A model generated the notes under the pieces. It was given only the letters and a program-made list of their open reading frames with translations, searched no databases and was not told where the DNA came from. A DNA stretch of 64,000 nt, from positions 1 to 64,000 of the forward strand of contig JAIOZL010000005.1 in assembly GCA_021740645.1 (NCBI GenBank), in the 5' to 3' direction. Shown here in pieces: positions 48,894 through 64,000 of this stretch; the first letter of the stretch is position 1; every line of letters begins with the position of its first letter. Both the position numbers and the translations under genes were made by a program. This DNA is from Bacteroidales bacterium (GTDB taxonomy: Bacteria; Bacteroidota; Bacteroidia; Bacteroidales; JAADJA01).

Positions 48894-49109
48894 ATGAAGA
48901 AAAATATACTTGTTGCCCTTTTCTTGTTGGTTTTTCTCGTAAGCCCAATAGTTTTACCTGAGCTATTTGCTGATGCACCACCTGATCCGGGAGGAGACCC
49001 AACCGGGGGAAATCCTGTAGGCGGAGGTTCACCAATAGGAGGTGGATTAATATTAATGTTAAGCTTCGGAATTGCATATGCAACCAGAAAGTTGTTCAAA
49101 AACAAATAA
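48894..49109 (+). CDS. Mini-protein 1: secreted Gly/Pro-rich peptide with C-terminal sorting-like signal (G-type)
   Basis: The 71-residue product has a signal peptide (1-26, ending LFA), a short 'DAPPDPGGDPTGGNPVGGGSPIGGG' spacer, one membrane helix (about 51-64) and a basic tail (RKLFKNK). The core of 27 codons is identical in amino acids to the copy at 59905 but differs at 14 synonymous codons, strong evidence of selection on the peptide. The order motif–helix–basic tail resembles PEP-CTERM/exosortase-type signals, and 'GxxPxxGG' resembles, from memory, PID-CTERM-type motifs. It stands 2 bases ahead of mini-protein 2 and shares its promoter. Function unknown. Confidence 0.78.
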   Translation: MKKNILVALFLLVFLVSPIVLPELFADAPPDPGGDPTGGNPVGGGSPIGGGLILMLSFGIAYATRKLFKNK

Positions 49110-49111
49110 AA

Positions 49112-49333
49112 ATGAAGAAATTTATAAAGGTATCAACACTTGTCATTGGCTTAAGTATTTTTCCCCTGATAATGTTTGCTCAAAATCCTCCCCATCCTAA
49201 TGGAGGAAGTGGACCTACCGGTGGAAATACCCCTGTTGGTGGCGGAGCTCCCCTTGACGGAGGATTACTTACTTTAGTCGTTTTGGGTTCAGCTTATGCC
49301 TTAAAAAATACGATTCGCTTCAAAGCGGAATAA
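49112..49333 (+). CDS. Mini-protein 2: secreted Gly/Pro-rich peptide with C-terminal sorting-like signal (D-type)
   Basis: The 73-residue product follows mini-protein 1 after 2 bases. Signal peptide 1-23 (ending FAQ), spacer starting 'NPPHPNGGSGPTGG', motif 'GGGAPLDGG', membrane helix (about 50-64) and basic tail. It is a close homologue of the protein at 54321: the 29-codon core differs by one residue (Leu/Ile) but at 15 synonymous codons. It is thus a different subtype from mini-protein 1 (Asp where that has Gly). Likely exported and cut or anchored at its C-terminus. Function unknown. Confidence 0.78.
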   Translation: MKKFIKVSTLVIGLSIFPLIMFAQNPPHPNGGSGPTGGNTPVGGGAPLDGGLLTLVVLGSAYALKNTIRFKAE

Positions 49334-50199: not shown

Positions 50200-53100
50200 A
50201 TGAGAAAGATTACTTTTCTTTTATTAATGACTTACCTTATGGTAGCTTTACCAGGGTGGTCACAGCTCTTCATTACAGAGCTAGCTGATCCCAACAATAT
50301 CGATCAAGCCCGTTTTGTTGAGATTTATAACGCAGGTCCTTCGGCTGTTGATTTAAGTGCAGGTTATGATTTACAAAGATGGACCAATAATAATACGTTA
50401 CCACAAGCACCGGTTGAATTAACTGGAACGATTGCGGCAGGCGGATTTTACATTGTTTGTAACAATGCTGGAACATTTTTAAGTACTTACGGATTTGCAG
50501 CTGATCAAAATATGGGAATCGGTGGACCAGCAGACAGTAACGGTGATGACCAAATTGCTTTGAGAGATCCATCAGATGCAATTATTGATATGTTCGGTGT
50601 GCCTGGCGAGGACGGTTCAGGAACAAACCATGAATTTGAAGATGGTAGAGCTGAAAGGAAAGCAACAGTAACCACTGGTAATGCGACTTATACCTTTGCT
50701 GAATGGAATATTTGGAACGATACAGGTGCTGCAGGTACTACTAACGATCCTCAGGATGCACCAGGCGATTTTGATCCAGGTTCATGGATTGGCGCAACTG
50801 GCGGGCCAGCCCTGGCTGTATCACCTAACTCATTGGCAGGTTTTTCATATGTTGAAACTGCAGGTGGTCCCTCTGCATCTCAATCATTTACGGTTGAGGG
50901 TGTTGATTTAACAGCAGATATAACAGTTACTCCTACGACAAATTATGAAATATCGCTTGATGATATTACATACCAATTAACTGCAATAACGCTCACTCAA
51001 TCAGGAGGTTCCGTTGCAACTACTACAGTATATACTCGTCTTAAGGCTGGTTTACCAGGTGGCGATTACAATGAAAATATTACATGTTCTTCTGCTGGAG
51101 CAGATGACAAATTGGTAGCATGCTCTGGTACAGTAGAAGCTCCGGCAACAACCACACTACCCTACAGCGAACCCTTTGATACCAACCTGGGTGATTGCTA
51201 CACTTACAGTGTTTCAGGTGCTACTGAAGTATGGAGCTGGGGCGAATATGGTGGAAATGGTTATGCTGAGATTAATGGATACAATACAGGAGATACTGAA
51301 ACCGACTGGTTAATCTTACCGGGAGTTGACATGGATGCATATGCTAATGAGTATTTAACTTTCGATATGTGGTGGCAATTTGGAATTGATGATGCCAGCA
51401 ATTACCTGAAACTATATTACTCAGCTGATTACCCTGGCATTGGAGATCCAACCACATACACCTGGACAGAAATTACTTTCACTTTAGGAGCATCAACAAC
51501 CTGGACAAACTCAGGCTTGCTTGATATATCGGGTATAACTGGAACCAATGTATATTTCGGATTCAAATACAATTATGAACCAGTAAATTACAGATGGTGG
51601 CAGTTGGACAATATCTCACTGTTTGAAGCAGCTAACATTGATGTAACCTTCCAGGTAAATATGGAAGAGCAAACTGTGGGTGGAAATGTTTACCTGGCTG
51701 GTGAATTTAATGGATGGAACTCAACCGCTGATCAAATGACTGATGGCAATTTGGATAATATTTATGAAGTTACGCTTACTTTATTGGAAGGTGTAAATTA
51801 TGAATATAAATTCGTCAATGGTGGTTCATGGGAAAATGTTCCAAATGAATGTGCTCAGAATGGAAACAGATTCGTTGATGTTGGTTCTACTAATTTTACC
51901 ATTGATCCCGTTTGCTTTGGATCATGCCAGAATTGTGGAATTCCCGAATGGAACATCACATTCAGGGTTGACATGAAAAATGAAACTGTTGGTGGAGATG
52001 TTTACATTGCTGGTGATTTCAATAGCTGGTCAGATGGATTAATGACAAATACTTCAGGCACTATTTACGAAGCTACTATTTTATTAGAAGAAGGTGCTAC
52101 CTATGAATACAAATTCAAAAATGGTGCAGGTGGCTGGGAAAACTTCTCCGGTTCATGTACTGTTGGAGGAGGATTTGGAAACAGGTACGTTGTTACTCCT
52201 GCCAATGATGCCACACTGGATATTGTTTGCTTCAACTCTTGTGAAGCCTGCCCCGTTGCCGATTTTGTAATGATAAACGAAGTAGATGCAGACCAGGTAG
52301 GTACTGACGCAAATGAATTCATTGAACTTTATGATGGGGGTGTTGGAAATACTGACCTTTCAGGATTAGTTGTTGTCCTGTTTAACGGCAGCGATGACGC
52401 ATCCTATGACGCCTTTGACCTGGATGGTCAATCAACTGATGCCAATGGATATTTTGTAATTGGAAGCGGCACTGTGCCCAATGTTGACTTGGTGGTTGGT
52501 GTTGATAATATTATTCAAAACGGTGCAGATGCCGTTGCTTTGTTTATTGGAAATGACACCGACTTTCCAAATGATACTCCTGTAACAGACGTTAACCTCA
52601 TCGATGCTCTTGTATATGATACTGGAGATAGTGATGATCCTGGTTTGCTACCATTATTAAATGCTGGTCAACCTCAAATTGATGAACAAGGCAGAGGAGA
52701 TGGTGAAGCACATTCAAACCAAAGAATTCCAAACGGAACCGGTGGTATGAGAAATACTGGTAGTTATGACCAGTCACCTCCGACTCCGGGAGAAGAAAAT
52801 ATCGGAATCTTTACCGATTGGACAGGTAATTCTGATGATGCCTGGGATAACGATGACAACTGGACAAACTTCATGCCTGGTTCGTCAACTAATGCATTAA
52901 TCCCGGCAAGCGCAACTACCTTCCCGATGATTTATATTGAAGGAGCAGAATGTAATGACCTTACCATTGAAAGCGGTGCTTCATTAGATATCTACGCTTC
53001 ACTAACTGTTTATAATACTTTTACAAATGCTGGAACCCTAAATATCTTGTCAGATGAATTTTGGACCGGTTCATTAATTGAGTATAACGGAGTAAGTGCA

Positions 53101-54294
53101 AATGTCGATCGTTATTTTACAGGTGATCCAAGTGCTTCACAGGACTGGCATCTTATCTCGCCTCCAATTTCTAATGCCCAGGCCGGTGTTTTCACAGGTA
53201 TGTACCTGCAAAGTTTCAACCCTACAAATTATGAATACACCTGGATTACTGACGAGTTAACTCCCCTCAATGTCATGGAAGGTTATGGAATATATTCAAC
53301 ACTAAGTGTTGATAATACTGTTACTTTCAGCGGTACTCTGAATTCGGGTATTCAATCTGCTGCTATTTCAACCGGTTTCGATTCATACAACTGGAACTTG
53401 TTCGGTAATCCGTATCCATCAGCAATCGATTGGGAAACCGTGACCATTCCTGCCAACATGACCAGTGAGGTTCACTATATTGAAGCCTCTTCAGGGAATG
53501 ATTTGTCCTATGTTAAAGGAGTAGGTGGTACAGGTTCTCAATACATTCCACCGATGCAGGGTTTCTTTGTAAGTGCTACAGGAGCAGATGTACTGCAGTT
53601 TGATGATGCTGTGAGAACACATAACGGAGCTGGTATATTCTTTAAGAATGATAATCCTCAATTATTGGTCATTGAAGCTGCAGGCGAGAACTTCAGCGAC
53701 AAAACATGGATCCACTTTAATGATGTAGCAGGTGTTGAACATGACGGACAGTTCGACGCTTACAAAAGAATTTCTCAGTCAAATCCTGAATTGCCCCAGA
53801 TATTCTCCTATACACCACAGGGAGTAAAACTTGGGATAAATGGATTGCCACAGGCAGATATGGTTCCGGTTGGTTTTACTGCGCTTGAGGCTGGTGAATT
53901 TACGATTTCAGCTTTGGAAACCGGAGACTTTTCAGACGTAATTCTTGAGGATATTTTACTCGGAACGCAGACTGACTTGCTTAACAAATCTTACACATTT
54001 AGCTATGAGCCGGGTAGTGCGGAAAACAGGTTTATTGTCCACTTTGCACCACTGAATGTTACTGAAAATGCAAAGGCTCTCTATACTATATTTGCATCTG
54101 ATGATGAAATCCGAGTTTTAGTTCCAGCAAACACGACAGGTGAAATCATGGTTTACAACCTAATGGGACAAGAACTTATTTCAACTTCCATTACTGGTAC
54201 TCGTAATATCATTAAGATGAATGAAACAGGAAATTACCTGGTTAGAGTTATAGGAAATGACGGTGCTTGTACTGGTAAAGTTTTTATTAAATAA
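50200..54294 (+). CDS. T9SS cargo with lamin-tail, anchor-J and CBM-like domains
   Basis: The 1364-residue protein has a signal peptide (1-21) and a lamin-tail (LTD) domain (22-195, 'FITELADPNN…RFVEIYN'). An Ig-like domain (203-312) precedes a choice-of-anchor-J domain (318-478). Two CBM48/glycogen-binding-like domains follow (480-578 and 583-684), each with 'VYxAGxFNxW'. A second LTD (686-865), a 'WTGNS…W…NW' beta region and a T9SS type-A sorting domain (about 1290-1364) end the protein. No catalytic motif was found. The starch-binding-like modules hint at alpha-glucan contact, an inference. It is followed after 26 bases by mini-protein 3, a probable operon. Confidence 0.83.
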   Translation: MRKITFLLLMTYLMVALPGWSQLFITELADPNNIDQARFVEIYNAGPSAVDLSAGYDLQRWTNNNTLPQAPVELTGTIAAGGFYIVCNNAGTFLSTYGFAADQNMGIGGPADSNGDDQIALRDPSDAIIDMFGVPGEDGSGTNHEFEDGRAERKATVTTGNATYTFAEWNIWNDTGAAGTTNDPQDAPGDFDPGSWIGATGGPALAVSPNSLAGFSYVETAGGPSASQSFTVEGVDLTADITVTPTTNYEISLDDITYQLTAITLTQSGGSVATTTVYTRLKAGLPGGDYNENITCSSAGADDKLVACSGTVEAPATTTLPYSEPFDTNLGDCYTYSVSGATEVWSWGEYGGNGYAEINGYNTGDTETDWLILPGVDMDAYANEYLTFDMWWQFGIDDASNYLKLYYSADYPGIGDPTTYTWTEITFTLGASTTWTNSGLLDISGITGTNVYFGFKYNYEPVNYRWWQLDNISLFEAANIDVTFQVNMEEQTVGGNVYLAGEFNGWNSTADQMTDGNLDNIYEVTLTLLEGVNYEYKFVNGGSWENVPNECAQNGNRFVDVGSTNFTIDPVCFGSCQNCGIPEWNITFRVDMKNETVGGDVYIAGDFNSWSDGLMTNTSGTIYEATILLEEGATYEYKFKNGAGGWENFSGSCTVGGGFGNRYVVTPANDATLDIVCFNSCEACPVADFVMINEVDADQVGTDANEFIELYDGGVGNTDLSGLVVVLFNGSDDASYDAFDLDGQSTDANGYFVIGSGTVPNVDLVVGVDNIIQNGADAVALFIGNDTDFPNDTPVTDVNLIDALVYDTGDSDDPGLLPLLNAGQPQIDEQGRGDGEAHSNQRIPNGTGGMRNTGSYDQSPPTPGEENIGIFTDWTGNSDDAWDNDDNWTNFMPGSSTNALIPASATTFPMIYIEGAECNDLTIESGASLDIYASLTVYNTFTNAGTLNILSDEFWTGSLIEYNGVSANVDRYFTGDPSASQDWHLISPPISNAQAGVFTGMYLQSFNPTNYEYTWITDELTPLNVMEGYGIYSTLSVDNTVTFSGTLNSGIQSAAISTGFDSYNWNLFGNPYPSAIDWETVTIPANMTSEVHYIEASSGNDLSYVKGVGGTGSQYIPPMQGFFVSATGADVLQFDDAVRTHNGAGIFFKNDNPQLLVIEAAGENFSDKTWIHFNDVAGVEHDGQFDAYKRISQSNPELPQIFSYTPQGVKLGINGLPQADMVPVGFTALEAGEFTISALETGDFSDVILEDILLGTQTDLLNKSYTFSYEPGSAENRFIVHFAPLNVTENAKALYTIFASDDEIRVLVPANTTGEIMVYNLMGQELISTSITGTRNIIKMNETGNYLVRVIGNDGACTGKVFIK

Positions 54295-54320
54295 TTATTA
54301 ATTTGTAAAATTGAACAACA

Positions 54321-54545
54321 ATGAAAAAAACAATAAGAACATTCATCATAGCTGCAATTCTGATTATTTCACCACTGCTGATATTAGCTCAAAATCCCCC
54401 GCATCCAAATGGTGGTAGCGGACCAACCGGAGGAAATACGCCTGTAGGTGGCGGGGCTCCTATTGATGGGGGTATAGTTTTACTAATGGTACTTGGTTCC
54501 GCCTATGGTGCAAAAAAAACTTTTAATTTCCGTAAAGAGAAATAA
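54321..54545 (+). CDS. Mini-protein 3: secreted Gly/Pro-rich peptide with 'APIDGG' sorting-like signal (D-type)
   Basis: The 74-residue product has a signal peptide (1-23, ending LAQ), a spacer starting 'NPPHPNGGSGPTGG', the motif 'GGGAPIDGG', a membrane helix (about 50-65) and a basic tail (KK…FRKEK). It lies 26 bases behind the T9SS giant at 50200 and before a strong terminator, so the two form an operon. The core is almost identical to mini-protein 2. 'PID' plus helix plus basic residues is the pattern I recall as a PID-CTERM sorting motif in Bacteroidota; unverified here. Confidence 0.8.
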   Translation: MKKTIRTFIIAAILIISPLLILAQNPPHPNGGSGPTGGNTPVGGGAPIDGGIVLLMVLGSAYGAKKTFNFRKEK

Positions 54546-54562
54546 TCGTTGAGAAACTACAG

Positions 54563-54592
54563 AAAACCCTGTATACTTTACAGGGTTTTTTT
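54563..54592 (+). terminator. Strong terminator after mini-protein 3
   Basis: An 11-bp perfect stem (54563-54573 with 54579-54589, loop TACTT) runs into a seven-T tract, 17 bases past the stop. Confidence 0.9.
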
Positions 54593-54648
54593 ATCTCTTT
54601 ATGCTAAGTTTGTTAACATTTAATAAAAACTTAAACAGTTTACAGGAA

Positions 54649-54676
54649 TTGTAAATTAGAACTATAACTACATTTG
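54649..54676 (+). promoter_or_regulatory. Promoter for the EndoI-type nuclease operon
   Basis: TTG (54649-54651), 17 bases, then TACATTTG (54669-54676). Spacing is slightly short. It lies 19 bases before the ATG at 54696. Confidence 0.45.
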
Positions 54677-54695
54677 CTCTCCATTTCTTCATCTA

Positions 54696-55811
54696 ATGAC
54701 AATATATACTAAACTCCTATACTTAAGTGTTGCATTAACTTTTATTTCTTTTTTGGGTAATGCGCAAATACCTACTGGCTATTATAGTGATGCATCAGGA
54801 TTATCAGGAGAATCATTAAAATCAGCCCTACATAGCATTATTGATGACCACTCAACTATATCCTATACAGCTGTCGAAAACGCCTTAAAGTTCCTGGATG
54901 AAGATCCCAATAATAGCAATAATGTCATTTTGTTATACAAGCAAACTTCTATCCCAAAGTCTTCATTTGGTGGAGGAGTTGATGATTGGAACCGGGAACA
55001 TATCTGGCCAAGCTCCCACGGAGATTTTGGGACTTCTGCACCAGAGGGTACCGACTTATTTCACATGCGGCCAACAGATGCAAGCGTAAACTCTGATCGG
55101 GGAGATAAAGACTTTGACGATTGCCAGGTGGGAGGCACACAGCACAGCGAAGCTACTTTATGTTATTATACCTCCAATGCATGGGAACCACCAGATGCGG
55201 TGAAAGGAGATATTGCCCGTGCTTTATTTTATATGGAAGTAAGGTATGAAGGTGATGCCGGGGAAGTGGATTTAGAAATCAAGGACTTCTATACCACCAC
55301 ATCTACCTCTCCCGGGCATTTAGGCGTTCTGTCAACCTTAATGTCGTGGCATGAAAATGATCCGGTTGATGCCAAAGAACAAACAAGGAATAACAATATT
55401 TATAATAATTACCAGGGAAACCGAAATCCGTTCATCGACCATCCGGAATATGTTGGCCTGATATGGGGCGACGGATTTGAGCCTGAACCAGCCAGTCATG
55501 CTTCCGATTTTTCAGCGCATACCATTACTATATCCTGGGTGGATGCTGTGGGTGGGGTATTGCCAGAAGCCTACCTGGTAAGAATGAATAATAGTGGTTT
55601 TGAAAATATTCAGGTCCCTGTAGATGGAAGCCCTGTTGCAGATGACTTCTGGAACCAAAATGTGGGTTATGGAACCGGAAAGTGTATTTTTAAAGGATTA
55701 ACAGAAAACACGGTTTATTATTTTAAAATTTATGGATATACCGGCTCTGGGGTAAATATTGATTACAAGACTGATGGTGACATCCAACAAATTAGTATTC
55801 AAGCAAAATAA
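54696..55811 (+). CDS. Secreted endonuclease I family nuclease
   Basis: The 371-residue protein has a signal peptide (about 1-23, ending GNAQ), an endonuclease I domain (about 26-255) and a C-terminal Fn3-like domain (about 262-370). The signature 'WNREHIWPSSHG' has catalytic His102, followed by 'DLFHMRP' and 'NSDRGD'. The family cleaves DNA and often RNA and is Mg-dependent. Many Bacteroidota homologues end in LTD and T9SS domains; this one stops after Fn3 and its neighbour 23 bases downstream carries those, suggesting a split arrangement. Likely first gene of a three-gene operon (nuclease, T9SS giant, mini-protein 4). Confidence 0.88.
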   Translation: MTIYTKLLYLSVALTFISFLGNAQIPTGYYSDASGLSGESLKSALHSIIDDHSTISYTAVENALKFLDEDPNNSNNVILLYKQTSIPKSSFGGGVDDWNREHIWPSSHGDFGTSAPEGTDLFHMRPTDASVNSDRGDKDFDDCQVGGTQHSEATLCYYTSNAWEPPDAVKGDIARALFYMEVRYEGDAGEVDLEIKDFYTTTSTSPGHLGVLSTLMSWHENDPVDAKEQTRNNNIYNNYQGNRNPFIDHPEYVGLIWGDGFEPEPASHASDFSAHTITISWVDAVGGVLPEAYLVRMNNSGFENIQVPVDGSPVADDFWNQNVGYGTGKCIFKGLTENTVYYFKIYGYTGSGVNIDYKTDGDIQQISIQAK

Positions 55812-55834
55812 AAAACAAATAAAAACTAACTAAA

Positions 55835-58800
55835 ATGATCAAACGAATTTTACAAATTAGGAATGCATCACTATTGGCGTTGATAATAGCTAATTTAAGT
55901 AGTTTTGGACAAAAAGATTCCTGGACTGAAAATTTTGATACTCAGTCTTCCAATAGCTATGGTTCAACTACCATTACAATTAATGGAAGGGATTGGACCA
56001 GGCAGGATGCAGGAAATTTCGCATATGCAAATACATATATGGGATCGTATGCTTTTACAATTAATGATGATAATGCAGGAGCTCATATCACCACACCAGT
56101 ATTAAATACATGCGGTACAGTGGGTTTTAAATATGCTTACATTAATGGGAGTAGTGACAATGTTTTTGTTCTTCAAAAATCTACTGATGGAACAAGCTTT
56201 ACAAATCTGGAAACACACACATTAGGGACAGGTGCTAATTTGACTTATGTAGATTATTCATTTGATGTTAATGATGCATCCACAAGTTTATATATAAGGA
56301 TTTTAAGTGATAATCAAAATGCTCACTTATTTGTTGAAGATTTCTATGTTACTGATTATTCAGGCGGTGGTTCACCAACCATTACCATTAGCGAAACCAC
56401 CCTCAGTGGATTCTCTTACATTGTCGGCAATGGCCCTTCATCAGAACAGTCATTTGATGTAGAAGGTAGTAACTTAACAGCTGATATTACCATTGTCGCA
56501 CCAACTAATTATGAAATTTCTGAAACATCAGGTGGGACTTTTGGCAGCACCATCACATTATTGCAATCAGGGGGATCTGTGAGTTTATCAAAAATCTATG
56601 TACGCCTTAATGCCAATTTGCCTATTGGTGATTATAATGATGAAGACATTACTTTAACGTCAACAACTGCTTCTGAAACAGTTACTTTGAACGGAACTGT
56701 TGTAGGTGCCGCAACGGGAGGTTGTGCAACAGATCTTATCATTTCTGAAATAAATGAAAATGGGAATGAAAAATACATTGAAATTGCGAATTTTACCGGA
56801 TCAAGTGTAAGTCTTGCTGATTATGATCTGGTAATTTATTCTAATGGGAATACATCAGTTTCTTCTACAATCGATCTGACTGATGGATCTTCAATAGCTG
56901 ACAATGATGTTTGGGTCCTTGCATATTCTAGTTCTTTTGCCTGGACAGGAACTCCAGACCAAACAAGCGGTTCATTTTCTCCAAATGGAAATGATGTTAT
57001 TGCTTTAAGAAAAGCATCTGTAAATATTGATGTATTTGGCACGATTGGTAACGGCTTATATTATTATGATGATAAAACTGTAATTAGAAATGCTGATATA
57101 ACTTCACCAACCACATCCTATAATCCTGCAGATTGGGCATTTACTGCATATTCAGGTGACAGTCCTGCTGATCTAGGTTTGCACACAATGAATTGTGGTG
57201 CAGTTCCTTCAATTTCAATAAATCCATTTACATTAACCGGTTTTACTTATGTGGAAGGTTACGGCCCATCAACAGAACAAAGCTTTGATGTAGAAGGAAG
57301 TGACCTGACCGCTGATATTGAAATTACAGCGCCCTCTGACTATGAAATTTCAGAAACTACAAGTACTGGGTTTACAAATGCTATAACACTTGATTTTGGA
57401 ACCGGCACAGTAGCTTTGACCACAATATACGTTCGGTTAAAAGCTACATTAGCTGCAGGTGATTATAATCTCGAAGAAATTTCATTAACCTCGACTGATG
57501 CTACAGATAAAATAGTTTATTGCAGTGGAACAGTCTTGGCACAAGAACCAACCAATAATCCCTCTTCAATTACTGCAACTACTATTTCTGAATATGCAAT
57601 AAGCGTAGCCTGGACAGATTCAGATGCTTCAGCTTACCTGATTAAAGGTAGTGATGTAAGTTATGCTGCTATTGGTACCCCTGAGGACGGCACGGAAGAG
57701 AGCAATGCAGCTTTGGTTCAAAATGTCGCTTCAGGTATTGAGACGTTCGAATTCACCGGACTTACGCCTTCAACAACCTACTACTTTAAATTATTCTCCT
57801 ATAATGGCACCGGAAGTACCATTAATTACAAAACAGATGGAACGATACCTCAGGATGATGCTACAACCAATGCCCCGACAATTACATCAGATTTGATGCT
57901 TTCTGCCCTTTGCGACCCTGCTAGCAATTACGCCTCCGACAGGTACATTCAGATTTATAATGCAGGCACTACTACCGAAGATCTATCTACTGTTTCAGTT
58001 GTGGCAGTTGGTAACGGCAGTGATATCTATACCTGGACCTTATCTGGAAGTATTTTACCAGGTGAAGTTAAAACATGCGGAGATGATGAAAACACAAAAT
58101 TTACGCCCGATTTTGCTACAACAGATTGGTCCTCGAGTAATAGCTCCTGGAATGGAAAAGTTGATGATGGGGCAAAATTATTAATTGGTACGACCATTAT
58201 TGATAATGCAGCAACTCACGGAAATTTTGAAAATAAAGTCTCTGTCCGTAACCAGGATGTAACGGGCCCGGCCGTTGCTTATAACTCTTCAGAATGGACA
58301 AGTACTGGTGTAACCTACGCAGATGATGCACCATCTATTCCTGGAAATCATTATTGTGATGCACCCTCATTTACCATCGGCCCCGGGGTTTGGAATACCT
58401 TAACATCCTCTTATGGAATTGGCGCAAGCTATAATATCAGTGGCACAGTTACAGTTGATAATGCCAGTACCTCACCTGCTACTTGTTTTGCATGCACTAT
58501 CTCCAGTGGGGCCAGCATCTCTGTGGATGCCGGTAAGACTCTAACTATAAACGGTTCTCTTACAAACAATGCTGGCACATCAGGTTTAGTTTTACAATCT
58601 GATGCTACTGGAACTGCTTCTTTGCTTCATTCAAGTTCTGGAGTAAATGCCACTGTTGAAAATTATAAAATCAGCGGACGTTGGCATTATATCTCTTTAC
58701 CTGTTAGCCAAACTACGGCTAATTCGTTTTTTGGAATGTACCTGATGCGTTGGTTTGAACCTACTGAAGAGTGGATTTATATTACTGATGAAAATTCAGT

Positions 58801-59902
58801 TTTGGATACGGTAATGCAGGGATTCTCTTTATGGACTACTTCCAATGCAACAGTAAGTTATACCGGGCAGTTGAACAATGGAGCTTATGCTATAGATGTT
58901 ACTCATAACGGCGACCCCGTTTCTCAAAACAGCAGCTTTAACTTTATTGGTAACCCTTATCCTTCAGCAGCGGACTGGAACCAGGCTGGATGGGATTTAA
59001 CAGATGTGGATCCTACAATTTATATTTGGGACGGAGCACAATATGGTAGCTATAACAGGGTCTCGAAAATCTCAACCAATGCTGTGGATAGTATTCTTCC
59101 GGCTCACCAGGGATTTTTTGTTGCCTGTAATGATGAGACGAATGGAGATGGTTCAGTCAGTGTGGATAATAGTGTTCGTTTGCATTTTTCTCATAATAAT
59201 TATAAATCAAATGGCACAAAGTCAAATACGGGAAATAATCTTCGGTTTGTATGCAATGGCAACGGATACTCCGATGAGATGGTCATAAATGTAGAAGAAT
59301 CAGCAACACTTGACTTCGATGGAAATTACGACAGTTATAAATTAAATGGTATTGAAGCGGCACCGCAGTTATATTCTTATACTGCCGATAATAAAAAAGT
59401 GGCCGTTAATAGCATTGCAGCTGTAAATAAGCTAACAAGCCTCCTTGTTGGTTTTGAAGTGGGTGAAGATGCCATGTATGAAATTTCATTAACGGATATC
59501 AATGGATTTGATGGCATCCCGGTTTACCTTGAGGATTTAAAAGAACACAAAGTAATCGATATCAAAGCAGTTTCGAATTATAAGTTCTATGCATCTGCAG
59601 AGGATGAAGCCCAGCGTTTTATTTTACATTTCTCGTACACCGAAGCCCCGGCCATAAGCGAAACACAGTCCACTGACGATATCATCATTTATGCAAAAGA
59701 CAAAATAATCAATATACTTTCAACCAGCGAGATGAATGGAGATGTTACTGTATATGATCTTTTGGGTAGACGGGTATTTACCGGAAGTCTGAACAACACC
59801 CTTACCCGTGAAGTAAGTATGTTGGATAAAGAAGGTTATTTTATTGTGAATGTTGTGTCAGAAAATGGGGTATTGAATAAAAAGATTTACCTAAATAATT
59901 AA
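55835..59902 (+). CDS. T9SS cargo with lamin-tail, Ig-like and Fn3 domains
   Basis: The 1355-residue protein has a signal peptide (about 1-25), an anchor-like domain (27-175), an Ig-like domain (181-290), an LTD (298-455), a second Ig-like domain (459-568), Fn3 (572-676), a second LTD (684-840), further beta regions and a T9SS type-A sorting domain (about 1280-1355). The Ig-like domains share 'SFDVEGS…LTADI' with the giant at 50200, so the two proteins are related. No active site was recognised. It begins 23 bases after the nuclease gene and ends 2 bases before mini-protein 4, strong evidence of an operon. Confidence 0.83.
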   Translation: MIKRILQIRNASLLALIIANLSSFGQKDSWTENFDTQSSNSYGSTTITINGRDWTRQDAGNFAYANTYMGSYAFTINDDNAGAHITTPVLNTCGTVGFKYAYINGSSDNVFVLQKSTDGTSFTNLETHTLGTGANLTYVDYSFDVNDASTSLYIRILSDNQNAHLFVEDFYVTDYSGGGSPTITISETTLSGFSYIVGNGPSSEQSFDVEGSNLTADITIVAPTNYEISETSGGTFGSTITLLQSGGSVSLSKIYVRLNANLPIGDYNDEDITLTSTTASETVTLNGTVVGAATGGCATDLIISEINENGNEKYIEIANFTGSSVSLADYDLVIYSNGNTSVSSTIDLTDGSSIADNDVWVLAYSSSFAWTGTPDQTSGSFSPNGNDVIALRKASVNIDVFGTIGNGLYYYDDKTVIRNADITSPTTSYNPADWAFTAYSGDSPADLGLHTMNCGAVPSISINPFTLTGFTYVEGYGPSTEQSFDVEGSDLTADIEITAPSDYEISETTSTGFTNAITLDFGTGTVALTTIYVRLKATLAAGDYNLEEISLTSTDATDKIVYCSGTVLAQEPTNNPSSITATTISEYAISVAWTDSDASAYLIKGSDVSYAAIGTPEDGTEESNAALVQNVASGIETFEFTGLTPSTTYYFKLFSYNGTGSTINYKTDGTIPQDDATTNAPTITSDLMLSALCDPASNYASDRYIQIYNAGTTTEDLSTVSVVAVGNGSDIYTWTLSGSILPGEVKTCGDDENTKFTPDFATTDWSSSNSSWNGKVDDGAKLLIGTTIIDNAATHGNFENKVSVRNQDVTGPAVAYNSSEWTSTGVTYADDAPSIPGNHYCDAPSFTIGPGVWNTLTSSYGIGASYNISGTVTVDNASTSPATCFACTISSGASISVDAGKTLTINGSLTNNAGTSGLVLQSDATGTASLLHSSSGVNATVENYKISGRWHYISLPVSQTTANSFFGMYLMRWFEPTEEWIYITDENSVLDTVMQGFSLWTTSNATVSYTGQLNNGAYAIDVTHNGDPVSQNSSFNFIGNPYPSAADWNQAGWDLTDVDPTIYIWDGAQYGSYNRVSKISTNAVDSILPAHQGFFVACNDETNGDGSVSVDNSVRLHFSHNNYKSNGTKSNTGNNLRFVCNGNGYSDEMVINVEESATLDFDGNYDSYKLNGIEAAPQLYSYTADNKKVAVNSIAAVNKLTSLLVGFEVGEDAMYEISLTDINGFDGIPVYLEDLKEHKVIDIKAVSNYKFYASAEDEAQRFILHFSYTEAPAISETQSTDDIIIYAKDKIINILSTSEMNGDVTVYDLLGRRVFTGSLNNTLTREVSMLDKEGYFIVNVVSENGVLNKKIYLNN

Positions 59903-59904
59903 TT

Positions 59905-60117
59905 ATGAAATTAAATATTAAACCATTCATTTTATTAGTTGGGATTCTACTGATTTTTGTAATTCCAGTACTGGCTGATGCACCACCTGATCCGGGAGGG
60001 GACCCTACAGGAGGCAATCCGGTTGGCGGCGGATCCCCGATTGGAGGTGGGCTGCTCACTTTTATTATTGCATCAATCTATTATACTTTTTATAAGATTA
60101 AAAGGGATAGGAATTAA
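59905..60117 (+). CDS. Mini-protein 4: secreted Gly/Pro-rich peptide with sorting-like signal (G-type)
   Basis: The 70-residue product has a signal peptide (1-24, ending VLA), the same 27-residue core as mini-protein 1, a membrane helix (about 50-63) and a basic tail (YKIKRDRN). It starts 2 bases after the stop of the T9SS giant, a spacing that permits translational coupling. Codon choices differ from mini-protein 1 at 14 of 27 core codons without changing the protein. Function unknown. Confidence 0.8.
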   Translation: MKLNIKPFILLVGILLIFVIPVLADAPPDPGGDPTGGNPVGGGSPIGGGLLTFIIASIYYTFYKIKRDRN

Positions 60118-63580: not shown

Positions 63581-64000
63581 TTAGATGGGTGTAATATCAA
63601 GATTGAATGTGAATTTATAAAACAATTCAATGTGCAGTCCATTGTCAAGGCCTATCCTGAATCCAATCAACAACAATATTAAAATGACGAGGTAAAGCCA
63701 TTGAATCTGGTTGGGCTTTTTAAGTGTTTTAAACCCTTTAGAAGGTTTCGACATCCGGTTAAATAAAACCGGCAGCACAGCAAAGGCCATGGTAACCAAA
63801 TTCCCTGAATCGTAATTCATATTATTCGGCAGTTTGACAAGATAAATAAACGAGGCCCCGATCAACCAGGGTAAAACAACCTGGAAGAACAGAAACTTAA
63901 TTTTATTATTTTGCCTGATCCGGGTAACTGAATAGGAAGTCTCCAAAAAATTAGATGCAGCATAATATCCGATCAATCCAAGGATAAATAAAAAGACCAT
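63581..64000 (-). CDS. Multi-pass membrane protein, cut by the window edge
   Basis: The visible 139 residues contain three or four hydrophobic helices ('FFQVVLPWLIGASFIYLV' and 'WLYLVILILLLIGFRIGL' are clear) and end 'TFNLDITPI'. The frame is still open at base 64000, so the first visible Met may be internal and the N-terminus lies outside the window. Homology was not recognised. It is convergent with rnr, with 21 bases between stops. Confidence 0.55.
   Translation of the reverse strand: MVFLFILGLIGYYAASNFLETSYSVTRIRQNNKIKFLFFQVVLPWLIGASFIYLVKLPNNMNYDSGNLVTMAFAVLPVLFNRMSKPSKGFKTLKKPNQIQWLYLVILILLLIGFRIGLDNGLHIELFYKFTFNLDITPI

Follow-up and report, generated by a model that had tools for sequence, protein, structure and literature searches.

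What are the mini-proteins of about 70 amino acids that are encoded directly behind two giant cargo genes of the type IX secretion system (T9SS) in a Bacteroidales bacterium, and what might they do for the giants that precede them? The question arises in a 64,000-nucleotide stretch (positions 1 to 64,000 of contig JAIOZL010000005.1, assembly GCA_021740645.1), hereafter the window, which encodes four such proteins, minis 1 to 4. Mini 3 follows giant A after 26 bp and mini 4 follows giant B after 2 bp, and minis 1 and 2 stand in tandem, 2 bp apart, with no giant beside them; an earlier note on this DNA had given the two distances behind the giants and the giant-less pair correctly. A T9SS cargo gene followed by a mini gene is, as judged by genome comparison, well supported as a recurring bicistron across the phylum Bacteroidota, and the minis are most likely members of the PID-CTERM sorting-signal family, of the exosortase-substrate type. 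The component families were already known, and it is their adjacency to T9SS genes that was found here; we found no report of the pairing in the literature on PID-CTERM, XrtX, and T9SS with CTERM, and the NCBI family page may mention it.

Open reading frames (ORFs) were called mechanically from the sequence, the genomes compared were mostly metagenome-assembled, and the source genome is estimated to be 95.8% complete with 5.95% contamination. The minis and giants of the window and the exosortase described below all lie on a single contig (C51).

A recurring pair of cargo gene and mini gene

The pairing was examined in two samples. Bacteroidales-type loci were collected by a scan of the contigs of other genomes and from the source genome; among them the mini was preceded by a gene with a T9SS type A tail (TIGR04183, cut-off 23 bits) in 55 of 65 cases, as against 4 of 60 downstream neighbours (p = 5e-20, with several loci per genome that are not fully independent). 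For a phylum-wide sample, the NCBI model was used to pick a single PID_CTERM locus in each of 30 genomes; of the 29 genes upstream of the mini that could be read, 24 had a T9SS tail. In the source genome the upstream gene could be read for 13 minis, 6 of which lie directly behind a T9SS gene (p about 6e-6, on the assumption of approximately 175 T9SS genes among approximately 4300); because of this value and the recurrence in other genomes we regard the pairing as more than chance.

The positions of intrinsic terminators bear on whether the two genes share a transcript. Of 49 loci, 26 have such a terminator within 120 bases 3' of the mini and 2 have one in the gap between giant and mini, where 0.2 would be expected in each position; because they sit after the mini and rarely in the gap, giant and mini are probably carried on one transcript. 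At the giant A junction, no intrinsic terminator was found in the 26-bp gap and a strong one follows mini 3; the 2-bp gap behind giant B fits translational coupling. The earlier note had proposed giant and mini as a unit, to be abandoned if minis lay mostly away from T9SS genes or were transcribed separately; the survey and the terminators both argue in favor of the unit.

The same note had suggested that the two pairs of the window are a duplicated cassette with shared immunoglobulin (Ig)-like and lamin-tail modules. The modules are indeed common to both giants: lamin-tail domains (LTD) are present, and an LTD/Ig-like region and a long C-terminal region can be aligned (38% identity over 308 amino acids and 30% over 484 amino acids). 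As a recent tandem duplication, the cassette was rejected. Minis 3 and 4 (45% identical) belong to separate subgroups (QNPPHPNGG and DAPPDPGG) and have their nearest relatives elsewhere in the genome, and the two giants share only 26% identity over their last 130 amino acids.

The features of the window are collected in Table 1. Two side observations concern genes around the minis. An endonuclease I gene at 54696-55811, with an fn3-like end and without a T9SS tail, lies 3' of mini 3 and 23 bp before giant B, and the order of mini and then endonuclease was seen again in loci L038 and L041. In addition, cargo-less minis occupy conserved places, in the window (48894-49333) and at L085; L033 and L087; and L034, L077, L093 and L096; the sites are between rluB-like and RNase H genes, beside a radA-like gene, and beside genes for a TonB-type outer membrane protein and a glycogen-debranching-like protein.

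Table 1. Features of the window (positions within the 64,000-nucleotide stretch)
Feature	Position	Strand	Description
Mini 1	48894..49109	+	71 aa, DAPPDPGG subgroup; PID_CTERM 21.5 bits (cut-off 26)
Mini 2	49112..49333	+	73 aa, NPPHPNGG subgroup; PID_CTERM 15.6 bits (cut-off 26); 64% identical to mini 3
Giant A, T9SS cargo	50200..54294	+	1364 aa; TIGR04183 26.4 bits
Giant A modules	50200..54294	+	Lamin-tail domains, Ig-like repeat, modules like carbohydrate-binding modules (CBM), shared C-terminal region, T9SS type A tail
Giant A C-terminal region	53905..54291	+	YPNP-less, RemA/RemZ-like C-terminal domain (CTD); profile A5 151 bits
Mini 3, PID-CTERM protein	54321..54545	+	74 aa; 29.2 bits (over cut-off)
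Mini 3 predicted signal peptide	54321..54389	+	Residues 1-23; invariant Ala23; modelled helix 3-21
Mini 3 conserved Pro/Gly-rich ectodomain	54390..54458	+	QNPPHPNGGSGPTGGNTPVGGGA; invariant P27, P29, P41-G45
Mini 3 PID-CTERM signal	54459..54518	+	PIDGG, transmembrane helix, basic residues; model match residues 47-66; helix 47-73
Intrinsic terminator	54561..54591	+	Directly 3' of mini 3; -18.9 kcal/mol, folding z -5.3
Giant B, T9SS cargo	55835..59902	+	1355 aa; TIGR04183 26.5 bits
Giant B modules	55835..59902	+	Lamin-tail domains, Ig-like repeats, fn3, T9SS type A tail
Giant B C-terminal region	59483..59893	+	YPNP-less, RemA/RemZ-like CTD; profile A5 110 bits
Mini 4	59905..60117	+	70 aa, DAPPDPGG subgroup; member by alignment
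Membrane protein of 444 aa, C-terminal part	63581..64000	-	Divergent from XrtX-like exosortase; runs on to contig C51:64916

The mini-proteins and a candidate exosortase

The assignment of the minis draws on their architecture, which consists of a signal peptide with an invariant final Ala, a stretch of approximately 25 residues, one hydrophobic transmembrane helix, and basic residues. The conserved stretch, PPHPNGG..PxGGNTPVGGGAPIDGG, is rich in Pro and Gly and ends in P-[IL]-[DGS]-G-G; mini 4 carries PIGGG and a variant tail. An AlphaFold model of mini 3 has two helices joined by a low-confidence loop. Among the aligned mini relatives, 47 of 49 match the PID_CTERM model (NCBIfam NF046080, curated cut-off 26 bits) at E <= 0.1, and the source genome has 14 copies. 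Codon changes fall mainly at third positions, and the nonsynonymous rate (dN) is well below the synonymous rate (dS), indicating purifying selection; for these reasons we take the minis to be real genes.

A single XrtX-like exosortase gene is present in the genome, on the plus strand at C51:64998-65600, approximately 5 kb beyond mini 4, a short way outside the window. Its product passes the superfamily models TIGR04178 (66.7 bits, cut-off 23) and PF09721 (39.5 bits, cut-off 25.7), and the Cys109/Arg150/His169 triad is conserved, which places it within the superfamily; as its exosortase X score lies below the cut-off, it is called only XrtX-like. An XrtX-like gene was also present in 19 of the 19 other mini-bearing genomes tested, scoring 68 to 104 bits, all below the exosortase X cut-off. 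Across 395 genomes of the phylum, 55 had both PID_CTERM and PF09721, 7 had PID_CTERM only, 59 had the exosortase only and 274 had neither (p = 2e-27, a statistic that ignores kinship), and some other genomes have a PID-CTERM gene immediately 5' of an XrtX or XrtY gene. Operon pairing, CTERM architecture and exosortase co-occurrence are thus well supported at the sequence level.

In many mini-bearing genomes the neighbors of the exosortase gene are a divergently transcribed gene for a membrane protein of approximately 430-445 amino acids and a family 2 glycosyltransferase gene. The 444-amino-acid membrane protein divergent from the exosortase here had no Pfam match; it is possibly part of the exosortase system. 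At one locus (L128:5621-7965), a family 2 glycosyltransferase gene and a PMT-like (PF13231/PF02366) glycosyltransferase gene both adjoin the exosortase gene, which suggests a polyprenyl-linked sugar pathway.

The minis share much with the PID-CTERM/XrtX set (NF046080 to NF046083): the signal peptide, the P-[IVL]-[DGS]-G signature, the transmembrane helix and basic tail, and an exosortase in the same genome with conserved Cys, Arg and His. They differ from it in that the Bacteroidales-type motif is often PIGGG, PISGG or PLDGG, the conserved ectodomain is longer, and the minis occur in up to 14 copies and behind T9SS cargo. The curated cut-offs are not reached by minis 1, 2 and 4 or by the exosortase, and therefore we consider the Bacteroidales type a divergent branch of the family.

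Several variants were encountered among the loci. One (L227) encodes a 73-amino-acid mini with the variant motif PISDYLW, 5 bp behind a T9SS giant, and another (L260:1254-1682) has two tandem PID-CTERM minis behind a T9SS giant. A 973-amino-acid frame with a PID-CTERM-like end (L247:1115-4036) may encode a large protein with a signal of its own, or may be a miscalled frame. A 54-amino-acid ORF with the end ASPEPPGSGF, 11 bp behind a T9SS giant whose CTD is related (L236), is possibly another kind of small partner.

The tails of the cargo proteins

The source genome has at least 150 T9SS matches, among them giants A and B, which have lamin-tail domains and TIGR04183 scores above the cut-off; neither giant reached the Pfam T9SS model PF18962. 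Nearly all upstream tails at Bacteroidales-type loci are without the usual YPNP motif, and from these YPNP-less tails upstream of minis we built a profile (A5). Of the T9SS tails of the source genome, 25 matched A5 strongly (58 to 151 bits), the rest scoring below 36 bits; YPNP was absent from all 25 and present in the five best of the rest examined. Among the matches listed, no conventional tail lies directly 5' of a mini, the closest mini being 479 bp away.

The A5 profile matches RemA (E 3e-15) and RemZ (E 7e-14) of Flavobacterium johnsoniae. The predicted CTD fold (giant A C-terminal model, pLDDT 92) resembles the CTD of RemA (TMt 0.77, rmsd 2.2) as well as RemZ (TMt 0.75) and NucA (TMt 0.74), and is a CTD beta-sandwich. 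Type A tails of this kind have been seen on PorV clients (PMC10994853), and in view of the profile and fold matches we take the mini-linked tails to be type A tails of the PorV-client kind. The likeness to RemA and RemZ (PDB 8GL6, 8GL8) extends to a conserved Lys near the C-terminus; unlike here, no PID-CTERM partner has been reported for them.

The N-terminal domains of the cargos vary (laminin-G, LTD, MAM, cohesin, CBM), whereas the C-terminal region is common to them, and a mini function tied to the N-terminal domains was accordingly not supported. Distances between minis and between the CTDs of their partners correlate (r 0.49, versus 0.31 with partners shuffled within genomes; p = 0.005).

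Of the T9SS machinery, two PorU sortases in the genome score above the cut-off (1307 and 1264 bits). Their genes are in tandem (G000:C27:45513-52685; L263:2508-10208), and the products are 39% identical, with the GHGG and TCEF motifs conserved in both. Possibly there is one PorU sortase for each of the two classes of type A tail in the genome.

A proposed route to the surface and its rivals

We think it fairly probable that the PID-CTERM minis are substrates of the XrtX-like exosortase, encoded by the last gene of T9SS-giant operons, and propose that their product may help to place or anchor the cargo. One mRNA, ending 3' of the mini, would carry both genes, and Sec would take both proteins into the periplasm. 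The RemA/RemZ-like type A CTD would then direct the giant, with PorV as its carrier, out through the T9SS, and PorU would remove the CTD. The C-terminal helix would hold the mini in the inner membrane until the exosortase, through its Cys, Arg and His, cut it near P-[IL]-[DGS]-G-G, and the peptide of approximately 25 Pro/Gly-rich residues would be handed to a carrier, which may be a glycolipid because glycosyltransferase genes adjoin the exosortase gene. The mini product would finally reach the surface and help to place or anchor the cargo. We infer the Sec export, the T9SS export of the giant and the exosortase cut from what is known of these families; the last step, an effect of the mini product on the cargo, is speculative.

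This arrangement recalls known systems. The SprB-SprF system, with type B cargo and a PorP/SprF shuttle, likewise has a cargo gene followed by a small partner gene, repeated within a genome and with orphans; unlike SprF, a beta-barrel, the partner here is a one-transmembrane CTERM peptide, and the cargo tails are type A. An SprF-like partner was therefore rejected, on the size and topology of the mini and on the type A tails. GlyGly-CTERM/rhombosortase and MYXO-CTERM/myxosortase share the tripartite C-terminal signal cut by an intramembrane protease, and serve surface anchoring after export via another secretion system, T2SS (type II; PMC3237569, PMC11980579). There, however, the cargo itself bears the signal, whereas here the signal belongs to a small protein of its own, whose gene follows that of the cargo. 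The cargo-mini pair thus has the gene order of SprB-SprF and the signal type of the rhombosortase and myxosortase systems, and belongs to neither. For T9SS cargo of Porphyromonas and Tannerella, which is attached through the Wbp/Vim linking sugar, the sections of PMC7468200 drawn on here note that VimA resembles a PEP-CTERM-associated family, with a speculation by its authors on shared T9SS/CTERM chemistry, and describe neither a CTERM substrate nor an exosortase tied to genes for T9SS cargo.

A number of observations weigh against the proposed role. Contact between mini and cargo is putative, and the exosortase cut at the signal, its product and its acceptor are all predicted. The best NCBIfam match of the exosortase, exosortase X (NF046081), gives 87.7 bits and does not reach the cut-off of 170; of the window minis only mini 3 exceeds the PID_CTERM cut-off, minis 1 and 2 falling short, and a search with the mini 4 sequence by itself gave no PID_CTERM match. 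Minis without adjoining cargo exist (L031, L033 and L034, as well as minis 1 and 2). Only 6 of the 25 A5-subclass cargos in the source genome lie directly 5' of a mini and the other 19 do not, and in other genomes, mostly of family f7, about 1 in 18 sampled cargos with related CTDs has a clear mini. The mini-CTD correlation, for its part, may be explained in part by joint descent of the pair. From these counts we rejected the idea that each giant of the subclass has a mini as its private partner; the stoichiometric partner that the earlier note had offered is unlikely as a general rule, given the 6 of 25 and the cargo-less minis, its suggestion of a chaperone found no support, and its suggestion of an anchor is possible. 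Likewise rejected was a strict tie between the CTD subclass and minis everywhere, as the sampled cargos with related CTDs, mostly from f7 genomes, rarely have a mini and in other lineages minis stand behind conventional YPNP tails.

The strongest competitor, which we consider somewhat unlikely, is that the minis are exosortase substrates that end in an extracellular polysaccharide or matrix and have no physical contact with the cargo, the operons being shared with T9SS adhesins since both are needed simultaneously on surfaces. Exosortases elsewhere are tied to exopolysaccharide (PMC1569441, PMC12188702), glycosyltransferase genes adjoin the exosortase gene, xrtF and T9SS genes of F. johnsoniae emerged from one surface-colonization screen (PMC10936215), and orphan minis exist. 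Against it, the mini gene almost always comes right behind the cargo gene, in constant order over many unrelated cargos; in the source genome minis lie directly behind one CTD subclass only, among the matches listed; and minis and CTDs are correlated. It is quite improbable, in our estimate, that the mini stays uncut, as a single-pass inner-membrane T9SS accessory (adaptor, plug or assembly factor) that serves its cargo: gene order as in sprB-sprF (PMC12618676, PMC9143113) and one helix with a conserved periplasmic stretch would suit that role, but the C-terminus has the architecture of an exosortase signal in a family that co-occurs with exosortases, only approximately 25 residues, modelled without structure, lie outside the membrane, and the majority of subclass cargos have no mini.

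Spurious calls are easily made among short Gly/Pro-rich ORFs, and chance or annotation artefact behind large genes could be invoked; given the 14 copies here, relatives with invariant positions in many genomes, the third-position bias with dN below dS, and a terminator directly after the ORF, we give that explanation almost no credence. A bolder extension of exosortase processing is a relay of two sortases, in which the exosortase would load the mini peptide on a lipid or polysaccharide carrier and one of the two PorU sortases would then join the T9SS giant to the peptide. We hold this relay to be doubtful, a long shot; if true, T9SS cargo would be anchored or linked to the surface by a separately encoded peptide and not by the sugar linker of A-LPS (A-type lipopolysaccharide) alone.

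If the minis are processed by the exosortase as proposed, the pairing links two cell-surface sorting systems that apparently had not been connected before, and the link is testable. In F. johnsoniae, xrtF mutants are defective in surface colonization, as are T9SS mutants, and the exosortase substrates were named as future work (PMC10936215). The phylum-wide pairing offers a concrete, deletable gene pair with which to approach the substrates and role of exosortases in the Bacteroidota, and the same gene pair bears on how T9SS cargo may be anchored outside the Porphyromonas-type A-LPS.

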